Assembly (NCBI GenBank): GCA_022448955.1
Contig: JAKVCU010000053.1
Span: 1-64,000, forward strand
Direction of reading: 5' to 3'
From: Saprospiraceae bacterium
GTDB lineage: Bacteria > Bacteroidota > Bacteroidia > Chitinophagales > Saprospiraceae
Length of the DNA: 64,000 bases
Of the stretch, positions 45,015-48,592 are shown piece after piece (the stretch's first letter is position 1; every line of letters starts with the position of its first letter). Made by a program: the position numbers and the translations under genes. The notes beneath the pieces are model-generated. The model searched no databases, was not told the DNA's origin, and worked only from the letters and a program-made list of their open reading frames with translations.

Positions 45015-45214
45015 TTAAGCGGCTAGTCAAAATTGCTTGTATAATAAATTCCTGCCAGCTGGCAGGCACGGCGTTAGCTCAAAAATAGTAAGTAACTGAC
45101 GAGAGGAAAGTTACGCACGATTTTAGAAGGGACGTTAAAGCCTGTCAGCCTCTGGCTGAAATTTATTATACCAAATTCAGCCAGAGGCTGACAGGTTCTA
45201 GCCTAACTACTTAA
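45015..45214 (+). repeat. Dispersed intergenic repeat, copy 4 (full length)
   Basis: The longest copy, about 200 bp. In order it has TTAAGCGGCTAGTCAAAATTG, a perfect 16-bp palindrome CCTGCCAGCTGGCAGG (45051-45066), the AGTAACTGACGAGAG block, and a 20-bp-arm hairpin CCTGTCAGCCTCTGGCTGAA / TTCAGCCAGAGGCTGACAGG (45141-45195) enclosing ATTTATTATACC. It closes with CTAACTACTTAA. It ends 10 bp before the ATG at 45225, so the whole leader of that gene is repeat. Confidence 0.85.
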
Positions 45215-45224
45215 ACAATTGGCG

Positions 45225-46826
45225 ATGAAATTGTCCAGTACTTATCTTTTAGCATTCTTTAGTATCCTACCATCTTTTTTGCTTTCGCAAAATTGGCAGG
45301 TAAGGGCACAAATAAAAGGTACACAAAACGAAACCTCCAGTGCACTACTATTTACTGAAATAGGCGAACAATTGATTGGAGGAGCATTTAGCGATGGTAT
45401 TCAATATGATGAATTGGTAATTAATGCTTTAGGAGAAGATGATGTCTATCTTTTTTGTTTAGACAATAATGGCGATTTGAAATGGTCTTTTTCAGGAGGA
45501 AGTATCATTGATGATGAGCTCGTAGCTATTGCAAAAGATAACTTAGGTAATACTTACGTTTGCGGAAGCTACTGGATTGAAGGAGTGTTTGGCGATTTCA
45601 CGCTAGTGAATAATACAGGAGGGAAAGCCATCTTTTTAATAAAACTGGATGAGAGTGGACAAGTGGTGTGGGGTAGGAGTATAGAAGGAAGTGGTTTGAA
45701 AGAAGCTAAGGATGTCATAGTTGATGAAGATAACAATATTTACTTAGTGGGGTATTTCAGTGATGAATTATTTTTAACAATGGAGACTTCCATTACCTCA
45801 ATTGGTGATACAGATGCCTTTTTTACGAAGTGGGATTCCGATGGTCATCTGATATGGACTAATCAAGCAGGTGAAACAGTAGATACAAGGGCAAGAAAGT
45901 TAAGCTTATTACCCAATGGAGATATGATAAGCTCAGGAATTTTTGATGGTATTATGAGTATTGGGGATACTTCAATTGTTGCAGGAGCAAATGATTGGGA
46001 CGTATTTACACTTAGGTTAGAAGAAGCCACTGGCGATTTAGTTTGGCTAAGGAGGGCAGGAAGTGTTTTTGATCAATTGGTGAATGGATTAGATACAGAT
46101 TGGAATGGCGATATTTATTTATCAGGTTCATTAGTTGGAGTAATGCCATTTTCAGAGACGATTAGCATTGAAAGCAGTACTGGCAATCCTGATATTTTTC
46201 TAGCAAAGTATGACCAAGATGGTAACGCTCAATGGGCAAAAGTGGCAGGGGGCAATTTAACGCAAGATGTGATGGATATAAATGTGAGCGAAGAAGAGGT
46301 GGCTATTTGTGGTTTTAGTCAAGGTTCTTTTATGATTGATAATTTTATCTTTTCTACAATGGGTAATCTGGCAGGTTTTGCTGCTGGCTTTGACCTAGAT
46401 GGTAATTTTGAATGGGGACAAACGTTTAGTAGCAATACTAATGTCTTTGCTGACCAGGTAACACATGCACCAGATGGCACTGCTTTAGTTAGTGGAAGTT
46501 TTCAGAATACCTTGAATATAGGGAATGATATTATTGCAGAAGAGGACTTTGATGTTTTTGTAGCAAGTAGAGGGATAGTGGCTAGTTCTAGTCTATTGGA
46601 TGAAGAAAAAGTATTTACCATTTTTCCTAATCCAACAACTGGTCAAGTAAATGTACTTGTTGATGCTAATAATTGGGAACTACAAATTTGGGACGCAATG
46701 GGGAGATTAATAAAAACTGTTTTTGGTGAAGCTGTTATTGATTTGAACTCCCTAGAATCAGGATGTTATTTTATCAAAGTACAAGCGGAAGAAAATATAG
46801 CTGTTCAGAAGCTCATCATAGAATAA
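45225..46826 (+). CDS. SBBP-type beta-propeller protein with T9SS type A sorting domain
   Basis: 533 residues from ATG 45225 (MKLSSTYLLAFFSILPSFLLSQ, signal peptide); the track's TTG start is rejected. The body consists of repeated units such as GGSIIDDELVAIAKDNLGNTYVCGSYW and GSGLKEAKDVIVDEDNNIYLVGYF, the seven-bladed SBBP-like propeller found in secreted proteins of gliding bacteria. The C-terminus IFPNPTTGQVNVLVD...WDAMGRLI...ESGCYFIKV...QKLIIE is a type A sorting domain. It is exported by the T9SS; the function is unknown. The 3' end touches the candidate small RNA on the other strand. Confidence 0.87.
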   Translation: MKLSSTYLLAFFSILPSFLLSQNWQVRAQIKGTQNETSSALLFTEIGEQLIGGAFSDGIQYDELVINALGEDDVYLFCLDNNGDLKWSFSGGSIIDDELVAIAKDNLGNTYVCGSYWIEGVFGDFTLVNNTGGKAIFLIKLDESGQVVWGRSIEGSGLKEAKDVIVDEDNNIYLVGYFSDELFLTMETSITSIGDTDAFFTKWDSDGHLIWTNQAGETVDTRARKLSLLPNGDMISSGIFDGIMSIGDTSIVAGANDWDVFTLRLEEATGDLVWLRRAGSVFDQLVNGLDTDWNGDIYLSGSLVGVMPFSETISIESSTGNPDIFLAKYDQDGNAQWAKVAGGNLTQDVMDINVSEEEVAICGFSQGSFMIDNFIFSTMGNLAGFAAGFDLDGNFEWGQTFSSNTNVFADQVTHAPDGTALVSGSFQNTLNIGNDIIAEEDFDVFVASRGIVASSSLLDEEKVFTIFPNPTTGQVNVLVDANNWELQIWDAMGRLIKTVFGEAVIDLNSLESGCYFIKVQAEENIAVQKLIIE

Positions 46827-46857
46827 AAAAGAGGCAGCGCTACCACAGCACTACCTC
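46825..46857 (-). terminator. Rho-independent terminator on the minus strand
   Basis: Read on the minus strand, GAGGTAGTGCT pairs with AGCGCTGCCTC (11 pairs, two of them G-U) around a 5-nt loop, followed directly by TTTTTT. On the plus strand the same sequence has two A-C mismatches and no T run, so the element is clearly oriented leftward although no leftward protein gene precedes it. Confidence 0.7.
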
Positions 46858-46908
46858 AGCCCTAACCAAATAAAACCAAATTATAAATCTTTATAGCGAG
46901 TAATTGAT
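46825..46908 (-). ncRNA. Candidate small RNA, about 85 nt
   Basis: A Bacteroidota-type promoter (46915-46945) and a strong oriented terminator (46825-46857) bracket about 85 nt with no usable reading frame. The transcript would begin near 46908 and end in the hairpin plus U run. It lies in the gap between two plus-strand genes and overlaps only the stop codon of the upstream gene. I do not recognise a known RNA family. The transcription start is an estimate. Confidence 0.5.
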
Positions 46909-46914
46909 TTAACA

Positions 46915-46945
46915 CAAATATAAGGACTTTGTGTAAAAAATACAA
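46915..46945 (-). promoter_or_regulatory. Promoter for the candidate small RNA
   Basis: On the minus strand, TTG (46943-46945), a 20-nt spacer and TATATTTG (46915-46922), a full match to the Bacteroidota consensus and the same spacing as the hpd promoter. Confidence 0.6.
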
Positions 46946-46970
46946 TTACAAATATTTCAAAAAAAACACT

Positions 46971-47203
46971 CCTTTGTTAGAAATGTTTAGTAAAAGTAGA
47001 TTTTTTTTTAAAAAAAATCTACTTCGCTTATTTTTAGCATTTATTCTATGTAGCTTCCTACTCCCACTTAGCCAATATTTTTAATGATTTTTCTTTTTGA
47101 AGAAATTTTATTTCTTTGGATATTCTTCTAGCAGAATTATTTTTCATTTTTAGTAACAGCATTTTTTTAAAAAAAATCTCGTCTCAAATATAATTTTTAG
47201 ATT
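46971..47203. other. Very AT-rich leader region with A/T palindrome
   Basis: AAGTAGATTTTTTTTT is followed by AAAAAAAATCTACTT, forming an A/T-only palindrome near 46995-47026, and a second T7A8 block lies near 47163. These are probably curved DNA or a transcription pause or end site. No gene is supported. No clear promoter box for the peptidase gene at 47204 was found. Confidence 0.35.
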
Positions 47204-48592
47204 ATGTACCGATTTGCACTGTTATTTATATGCCTTCTTTTTACAACTAACCACCTTTTAGTTGCACAAACAGATGAAGACGCCTTCTTCATCAAAGAAA
47301 TTTATAATACAGCACTTACAAAAGGGAAAGCTTATGAATGGCTATATCATTTATCCGAAAATATTGGTGGCCGATTAGCAGGCTCGCCGCAAGCAGCAGC
47401 AGCTGTTGAATATACCAAGCAATTAATGGATACACTCGGTATGGACGAGGTAAGCTTACAAGAATGCATGGTGCCACATTGGGAAAGAGGAGAAAAAGAA
47501 GTGGTACGAATCGTTAACTCTTACCAAATAGGAAGTCTTGAGCTCAAAGCACTTTCTTTAGGCAATTCTATTGGTACTGGAGATAATGGTCTCACAGCAG
47601 AGGTGATTGAGGTGCAGACTTTGGATGAGTTGGATAGCTTGGGGTTTGATAAAGTAAATGGCAAAATTGTATTCTTCAATCGTCCGCTTGACCCTACAAA
47701 ACTAAATACGTTTAGTGCCTATGGCGGTGCAGCTGATCAAAGAGTTTTTGGCGCAAGCCGAGCGGCTAAATATGGAGGTGTAGCAGCATTAGTAAGATCT
47801 TTGACGACAAGAAATGACAATGTCCCACATACAGGGGTAATGATTTATGAAGAAGGAATTCCTCAAGTTCCTGCGATCGCTATCAGCACCAATGATGCCA
47901 ATCTATTGAGTCGATTATTAAAGAAGGAGCCTGTTAATGTCTACATGAGCAATACTTCTCGCAATCTTTCCAAAAAGAAATCCTATAATGTCATTGGAGA
48001 AATCAAAGGCAGTGAGTTTCCTAATGAGATAATTCTGGTAGGTGGTCATCTGGATTCTTGGGATGTAGGTGGTGGTGCACATGATGATGGTGCGGGTTGT
48101 GTGCATGCTTTGGATGTTATTCAAGTTTTAAAAAGATTGAATTATAAACCAAAACGTACGATTAGATGTGTGATGTTTATGAATGAGGAGAATGGACAGG
48201 CAGGTGCTATAGCCTACAGAGATGAATCAGATGCTAAAGGGGAATTCCACATGGCTGCTATTGAATCAGATAGGGGAGGATTTACACCAAGAGGGTTTAC
48301 TTGCGATGCCGATAAAGAAATTTTCGAAGAAAAGTTCCGTAAGATTACGGACTGGCTTCCACTTTTACAACCTTATGGTTTGGACCTAAAAAAAGGAGGC
48401 TCTGGAGCTGATATTGCTAGGCTAAAACCACAAAAGGGACTATTATTTGGCTTTGAACCCGATACTCAGCGTTATTTTGATTATCACCATACTGATATTG
48501 ATCGAATAGATGCCGTCAATAAAAGAGAATTACAATTGGGAGTAGCTGCAATTGCGAGCTTGATTTATCTACTAGATCAATATGGAATTTAG
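47204..48592 (+). CDS. M28 family metallopeptidase (carboxypeptidase Q-like)
   Basis: 462 residues. The signal peptide ends NHLLVAQ. A PA-type insert domain lies around residues 120-250. The M28 zinc site is complete: GGHLDSWDVGGGAHDDGAG (His, Asp), FMNEENGQAGA (Glu-Glu), ESDRGGF (Asp) and DYHHTDIDRID (His). It hydrolyses peptides in the periplasm or outside the cell, and the architecture resembles plasma glutamate carboxypeptidase/aminopeptidase. It lacks a T9SS tail, so a periplasmic site is more likely. hpt follows 39 bp after its stop. Confidence 0.92.
   Translation: MYRFALLFICLLFTTNHLLVAQTDEDAFFIKEIYNTALTKGKAYEWLYHLSENIGGRLAGSPQAAAAVEYTKQLMDTLGMDEVSLQECMVPHWERGEKEVVRIVNSYQIGSLELKALSLGNSIGTGDNGLTAEVIEVQTLDELDSLGFDKVNGKIVFFNRPLDPTKLNTFSAYGGAADQRVFGASRAAKYGGVAALVRSLTTRNDNVPHTGVMIYEEGIPQVPAIAISTNDANLLSRLLKKEPVNVYMSNTSRNLSKKKSYNVIGEIKGSEFPNEIILVGGHLDSWDVGGGAHDDGAGCVHALDVIQVLKRLNYKPKRTIRCVMFMNEENGQAGAIAYRDESDAKGEFHMAAIESDRGGFTPRGFTCDADKEIFEEKFRKITDWLPLLQPYGLDLKKGGSGADIARLKPQKGLLFGFEPDTQRYFDYHHTDIDRIDAVNKRELQLGVAAIASLIYLLDQYGI

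Follow-up and report, generated by a model that had tools for sequence, protein, structure and literature searches.

We identified, on the minus strand of a contig from a Saprospiraceae bacterium, an element that is almost certainly a real small RNA (sRNA) gene, previously uncatalogued and conserved across the Saprospiraceae. The RNA is likely to act in trans, by base pairing, and to set carbon-source priority; this mechanism appears well supported by two independent signals, one upstream of the RNA (its promoter) and one downstream of it (its target sites). The locus lies in a stretch of 64,000 nucleotides that was analysed as a whole (the window) and comprises the following features.

46943..46945, minus strand: -33 element TTG, from sequence and a promoter scan
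46926..46948, minus strand: operator-like palindrome TAATTGTATTTTTTACACAAAGT, overlapping the -33 element and common to glycolysis and sugar genes
46915..46922, minus strand: -7 element TATATTTG; TAnnTTTG stands at the same place in many, not all, relatives
46826..46910, minus strand: predicted sRNA of ~85 nt, from promoter and terminator anatomy, family conservation and no Rfam match
46861..46882, minus strand: near-invariant single-stranded 22-nt core AAUUUGGUUUNAUUUGGUUAGG / AATTTGGTTTTATTTGGTTAGG, from alignments of relatives
46861..46871, minus strand: proposed seed ATTTGGTTAGG, the 3' half of the core, whose complement CCTAACCAAAT occurs just upstream of catabolic-gene start codons
46831..46857, minus strand: terminator stem-loop GAGGTAGTGCTG-TGG-TAGCGCTGCCTC, 12 pairs including two G-U, with covariation
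46825..46830, minus strand: U run TTTTTT of the terminator, directly after the stem
45219..46826, plus strand: convergent gene with a T9SS sorting tail, an incidental neighbour
47204..48592, plus strand: divergent M28 peptidase gene, a conserved neighbour (57 of 76 loci), given as context and lying outside the RNA

A first-pass annotation of the window had proposed a self-contained sRNA here, driven by a TTG-N20-TATATTTG promoter. This promoter is indeed present on the minus strand at 46945-46915, as a -33 TTG (46945-46943), a 20-nt spacer and the -7 element (46922-46915). The terminator stem starts 58 nt from the -7 box and its U run ends ~90 nt from it. With the start placed near 46910 from the -7 box and the 3' end placed at the U run, the predicted transcript is ~85 nt long, in agreement with the earlier estimate. 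The hairpin is properly paired on the minus strand only, as had been claimed: on the plus strand the 12-bp stem has A/C mismatches in place of its two G-U pairs and lacks a U run after it. Likewise, the open reading frames of the window include no minus-strand protein gene at the locus. The element is intergenic with its own predicted promoter and intrinsic terminator, and it carries a conserved unpaired candidate seed complementary to mRNA start regions, all features of a trans-encoded sRNA. Its RNA fold beats 200 of 200 shuffles (z -2.97). The promoter pattern alone is weak evidence in an AT-rich window (TTG-N19-21-TAnnTTTG occurs 9 times, versus 5.2 in shuffles); it is the conservation of the element, not the promoter pattern, that excludes chance.

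Other hairpins are found in the vicinity. An AT-rich one (AAGTAGATTTTTTTT/AAAAAAAATCTACTT) lies between the sRNA and the M28 gene at 46994-47024, where a GTAGATTTTTT-like stretch recurs in some relatives, and perfect short GC-rich hairpins (CCTGCCAGCTGGCAGG, and TCAGCCTCTGGCTGA twice) cluster upstream of the T9SS-tail gene at 45051-45066 (minus), 45145-45159 (plus) and 45177-45191 (minus).

A 171-base blastn query matched most genomes of the family strongly (2e-60 for the best relative, <1e-8 for many) and found no comparable match outside it. An alignment of 27 loci spans 72 columns, of which 29 are invariant, mainly those of AATTTGGTTT.ATTTGGTTAGG. A covariance model that was built from this alignment and covers the 3' 67 nt detected the element at a cut-off of E <= 0.001 in 177 of 298 Saprospiraceae genomes, usually in one copy per genome, and a scan of GTDB genomes for the core pattern also led to Saprospiraceae (Lewinella, Neolewinella, Phaeodactylibacter, Flavilitoribacter, Aureispira and many MAGs). 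No Rfam family reached its gathering score in the window; at relaxed thresholds only MasB appeared, far below its threshold.

Elsewhere in the order and class, the covariance model gave weak matches. We do not count these matches in other families, the order or the class as members, as they are mostly 3' ends of coding sequences with a similar leader and an unrelated terminator. Those at L082-L089, from other families or orders, come right after stop codons and combine a AATTTGGTT-like leader with an unrelated terminator; several follow genes whose ends resemble T9SS sorting tails, and the matches may reflect chance or a wider 3'-end motif. The UUUGGUUUUAUUUGGUUAGG core occurs a second time, together with unrelated terminator stems, at L091 2966-3040, L093 3056-3125, L095 3049-3117 (minus), L359 and L232. 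The L093 copy is in 3' UTR position after an alpha/beta-hydrolase (PHB-depolymerase-like) gene, and such copies are perhaps 3'-UTR-derived sRNAs with the same seed. Genomes with the main sRNA can also carry a paralogous element, in which TTGTTTTCATTTGGTTTTTTGGGGTT... precedes a GGCAA..TTGCC-type terminator (L090, L092, L094, L096).

The terminator is present in all aligned orthologues of both the 27- and the 80-sequence alignments. Among the 80 loci listed, a terminator-like hairpin starts after the core, with two loci running off contig ends. The exact core was the selection criterion for this set, so its invariance there is by construction, whereas the stem was free to vary. Across 69 distinct sequences, 98.4% of stem cells are paired and 5 of 10 pairs have changed on both sides; none of 500 shuffles reached any of the covariation measures, and neither did slid structures. 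The BLAST-selected set showed covariation as well. Two stem pairs alternate between U-G and U-A across genera, which means that pairing is preserved on the minus strand only. These results strongly support the self-contained sRNA of the first-pass annotation: the covariance search of relatives that it had suggested matched genomes in most of the family, with the 3' part kept and the stem covarying on the minus strand. Conservation of promoter and hairpin in relatives, on which it had made the proposal depend, held for the hairpin across the aligned orthologues and for the promoter at many, not all, loci. A candidate conserved 5' hairpin was rejected, being a weak tendency only (mean z -1.0; MFE <= -4 in 45 of 63, with 31.7 expected).

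It is highly improbable that the locus instead encodes a short peptide or forms the leader of a longer transcript. One frame is open in the window, from a GTG to a TAG inside the core, but of 63 loci only 22, 11 and 2 have a start codon in the respective three frames, and the single variable base of the core alters the amino acid and makes a stop in one relative. As no frame is consistently open from a start codon, a short coding RNA was rejected.

Genomic context also sets the RNA apart from its neighbours. The downstream genes vary, and the T9SS-tail gene is common only to the same genus, indicating that the RNA is an independent locus and no appendix of either flanking gene. On the other side, a phosphoribosyltransferase gene, apparently of the hypoxanthine type by our reading, often comes next after the M28 peptidase; genus g7 lacks the peptidase there and has the phosphoribosyltransferase gene next to the sRNA. 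The sRNA and the T9SS gene abut at their 3' ends (46826), and the first-pass annotation had envisaged action on that gene's end as well as in trans, while the M28 gene, as the conserved divergent neighbour, could equally be thought a cis target. However, the T9SS neighbour is confined to one genus, the RNA core is unchanged at the 19 of 76 loci without the M28 neighbour, and the M28 gene lies outside the predicted transcript. Cis-regulation of the T9SS or the M28 gene was rejected on this synteny, and we hold it to be very improbable; action in trans, by contrast, gained support from the statistics of complementary sites.

The core holds two TTTGGTT repeats 10 nt apart, and we sought the reverse complement of its 3' half (CCUAACCAAAU / CCTAACCAAAT) in 15 sRNA-bearing genomes. 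From roughly 85 matches outside the sRNA itself, 59 were read with a simple ORF finder, and 24 of these 59 lay within 50 nt upstream of, or touched, a sense-strand ATG (median ~10 nt), against 1 on the antisense strand (p 8e-7). In 12 family genomes without the sRNA, none of 18 matches was so placed (Fisher p 8e-4), and the reversed word in the sRNA-bearing genomes was so placed in 3 of 30 cases (p 0.006); one reversed-word control match (L423) also precedes an acyl-CoA dehydrogenase gene. The signal is one of placement alone, the genome-wide frequency of the 11-mer not exceeding that of the reversed word, and the words were chosen once the core and the operator had been seen. No extended pairing was found in the bases flanking the 11-mer, and we do not take duplex energies or the permuted-word count as evidence, since the loci concerned had been picked for containing the word.

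Of the 24 putative target genes, 17 belong to amino-acid, acyl-CoA or gluconeogenic metabolism. Those with a site in more than one genome encode 2-oxoacid dehydrogenase E1 (three genomes), acyl-CoA dehydrogenase (two), thiolase (two) and a Glu/Leu-type dehydrogenase (two); further targets are tryptophanase/tyrosine phenol-lyase, branched-chain aminotransferase, PEPCK, 3-hydroxybutyryl-CoA dehydrogenase, serine dehydratase, a methionine gamma-lyase-like protein, an alanine dehydrogenase/PNT-like protein and a B12/MeaB mutase protein. Several target genes have the site in one genome only, and some identities come from BLASTP similarity to a scanned homologue or from reading of the sequence. In the window's own genome, exact 11-mers stand 3 nt before thiolase and 12 nt before B12/MeaB mutase genes, and 10-mers stand 11 nt before a GlgE-like gene and 21 nt before glutamate dehydrogenase, the latter spacing being that of the glutamate dehydrogenase 11-mer site in G031. 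The bias of 9-mers in this genome is modest (11 sense versus 3 antisense, p 0.03).

Could the core be mainly a protein-binding site, its UUUGGUU repeats binding an RNA chaperone or titrating a translational regulator in a CsrB- or CrcZ-like way, and the start-codon sites not be pairing partners at all? An exact repeat with a fixed 10-nt spacing and near-complete invariance is more than one seed usually needs, and other transcripts carry the same core at their 3' ends next to unrelated stems. But a protein site held in common would recur near start codons as copies of the core; what stands there is its complement, and genomes that lack the sRNA show no such sites. We regard such a role as unlikely and favour pairing of the core with these sites.

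The promoter provides the other signal. It is overlapped by a palindrome, TTATTGTA-N5-TACACTAAGT, and in most loci ATTGTA-N5-TACAAT/ACACAA-AAGT stands just upstream of the -7 box. The exact 20-base pattern has three sites in the window's own genome, at the sRNA, a PfkB sugar kinase and a GH57/DUF3536 glycosidase. Allowing up to one mismatch to the 23-mer raises the number to seven distinct sites, which add GAPDH, pyruvate kinase, glpD/fructokinase and a nucleotidyltransferase. The site precedes GAPDH in four genomes, pyruvate kinase in three and glpD/fructokinase in two, and is also found at genes for a GlgE-like protein, a sugar MFS transporter and fructose-bisphosphatase. When up to two mismatches are allowed, the own genome has 21 sites versus 7 for the reversed pattern, and four relatives have 9 versus 2, 8 versus 2, 6 versus 2 and 4 versus 1; several of the sites with two mismatches are intragenic and appear fortuitous. 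The PfkB gene with the operator-like site starts at CTAACCAATGG (L108, near 1480-1500), and a partial seed complement overlaps its ATG.

The centre of the palindrome lies ~29 nt before the predicted start, over the -33 box, which is the usual place for a repressor. Its overlap with the -33 element suggests a repressor that would be released when sugars are present. In genus g7, the sRNA and its promoter are kept and the palindrome is absent. The GlgE-like gene (G000:C48:3596-3667; L182, L453) has both an operator-like site and an sRNA-complementary site, an arrangement that would be as in a feed-forward loop. A base-pairing sRNA with these very targets might still activate or stabilise them, or answer to a signal other than sugar, as sequence does not fix the direction of control or the inducer. 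Against activation, most sites fall 3-26 nt ahead of the ATG, a region in which pairing usually prevents initiation; against another signal, the promoter palindrome is common to glycolysis genes. We give this possibility a small share of our confidence, and retain sugar-linked repression as the preferred reading.

We therefore envisage a circuit in which the regulator of the sRNA promoter would also bind before glycolysis and sugar/glycogen genes, acting as a repressor over the -33 element that leaves when sugars are present. The ~85-nt RNA would expose its single-stranded core with two UUUGGUU repeats, followed by the terminator. Its AUUUGGUUAGG segment would pair with CCUAACCAAAU, mostly within ~30 nt upstream of the start codon, on mRNAs for amino-acid, branched-chain and acyl-CoA catabolism and for gluconeogenesis, and pairing would block ribosome loading on these mRNAs, leading to their repression. 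The first repeat (AAUUUGGUUU) may serve as an additional seed or as a chaperone site. What the sequences show is the gene itself, its strand and its conservation throughout the family, the operator-like site that it has in common with other genes, and the non-random positions of complementary sites in genomes with the sRNA; we infer that the RNA is transcribed, that it pairs with these mRNAs and represses instead of activating them, and that sugar induces it.

What is known of trans-acting sRNAs in Bacteroidota comes mainly from gut Bacteroides, and our literature search found no paper joining Saprospiraceae with small RNAs. The nearest functional parallel is Spot 42 (spf) of enterobacteria, alike in logic if the sugar-priority model is right. 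Beisel and Storz reportedly described it in 2011 as a sugar-linked sRNA that represses genes for secondary carbon sources through start-region pairing, with targets that are said to overlap the regulon of its own regulator in feed-forward fashion. Its sugar-coupled transcription may have a counterpart here, in view of the operator-like site common to glycolysis genes. Spot 42 nevertheless shows no sequence or structure match to the Saprospiraceae sRNA (Rfam), and it belongs to a different phylum and has a different regulator.

Closer in phylogeny is MasB (BTnc201, RF04177) of Bacteroides thetaiotaomicron, an RNA of ~100 nt with a U/G-rich linker before its terminator that belongs to the Cur carbohydrate regulon and represses mRNA by pairing in the 5' region; its known target is one TPR gene, and it is described as narrowly conserved (PMC10994844). 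The layout is similar and the match runs across the element, but scores of 19.2 bits (window) and 24.6 bits (L058) against a gathering score of 105 place the Saprospiraceae sRNA outside this family, and its promoter palindrome is not known to be linked to Cur. GibS and FopS of Bacteroides are intergenic sRNAs that use conserved seeds to pair with metabolic genes' translation initiation regions (PMC11697453). The seed occupies the 5' end in both, whereas the Saprospiraceae core abuts the terminator; FopS is multicopy, whereas the Saprospiraceae sRNA is mostly single-copy and has no Rfam match. Because GibS, FopS and MasB all act in this way, start-region repression by sRNAs does operate in Bacteroidota (PMC10994844, PMC11697453). 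The Neisseria sibling sRNAs NgncR_162/163 control genes of the TCA cycle and of amino-acid uptake and metabolism (PMC9973317), but they are a sibling pair, bind Hfq and come from a different phylum; the sequence comparison with them consists of the Rfam scan alone.

Taken as a whole, we lean slightly towards a picture in which a glycolysis regulator drives one family-wide RNA that represses amino-acid, branched-chain and fatty-acid catabolism together with gluconeogenesis. This would be a Spot 42-type circuit that evolved independently in Bacteroidota and whose core module was also copied into the 3' ends of other transcripts. The sRNA probably helps Saprospiraceae to use sugar first. The proposal offers a concrete, testable circuit for how these bacteria rank sugars versus amino acids and fats, and the covariance model would annotate one RNA gene in over half of Saprospiraceae genomes.
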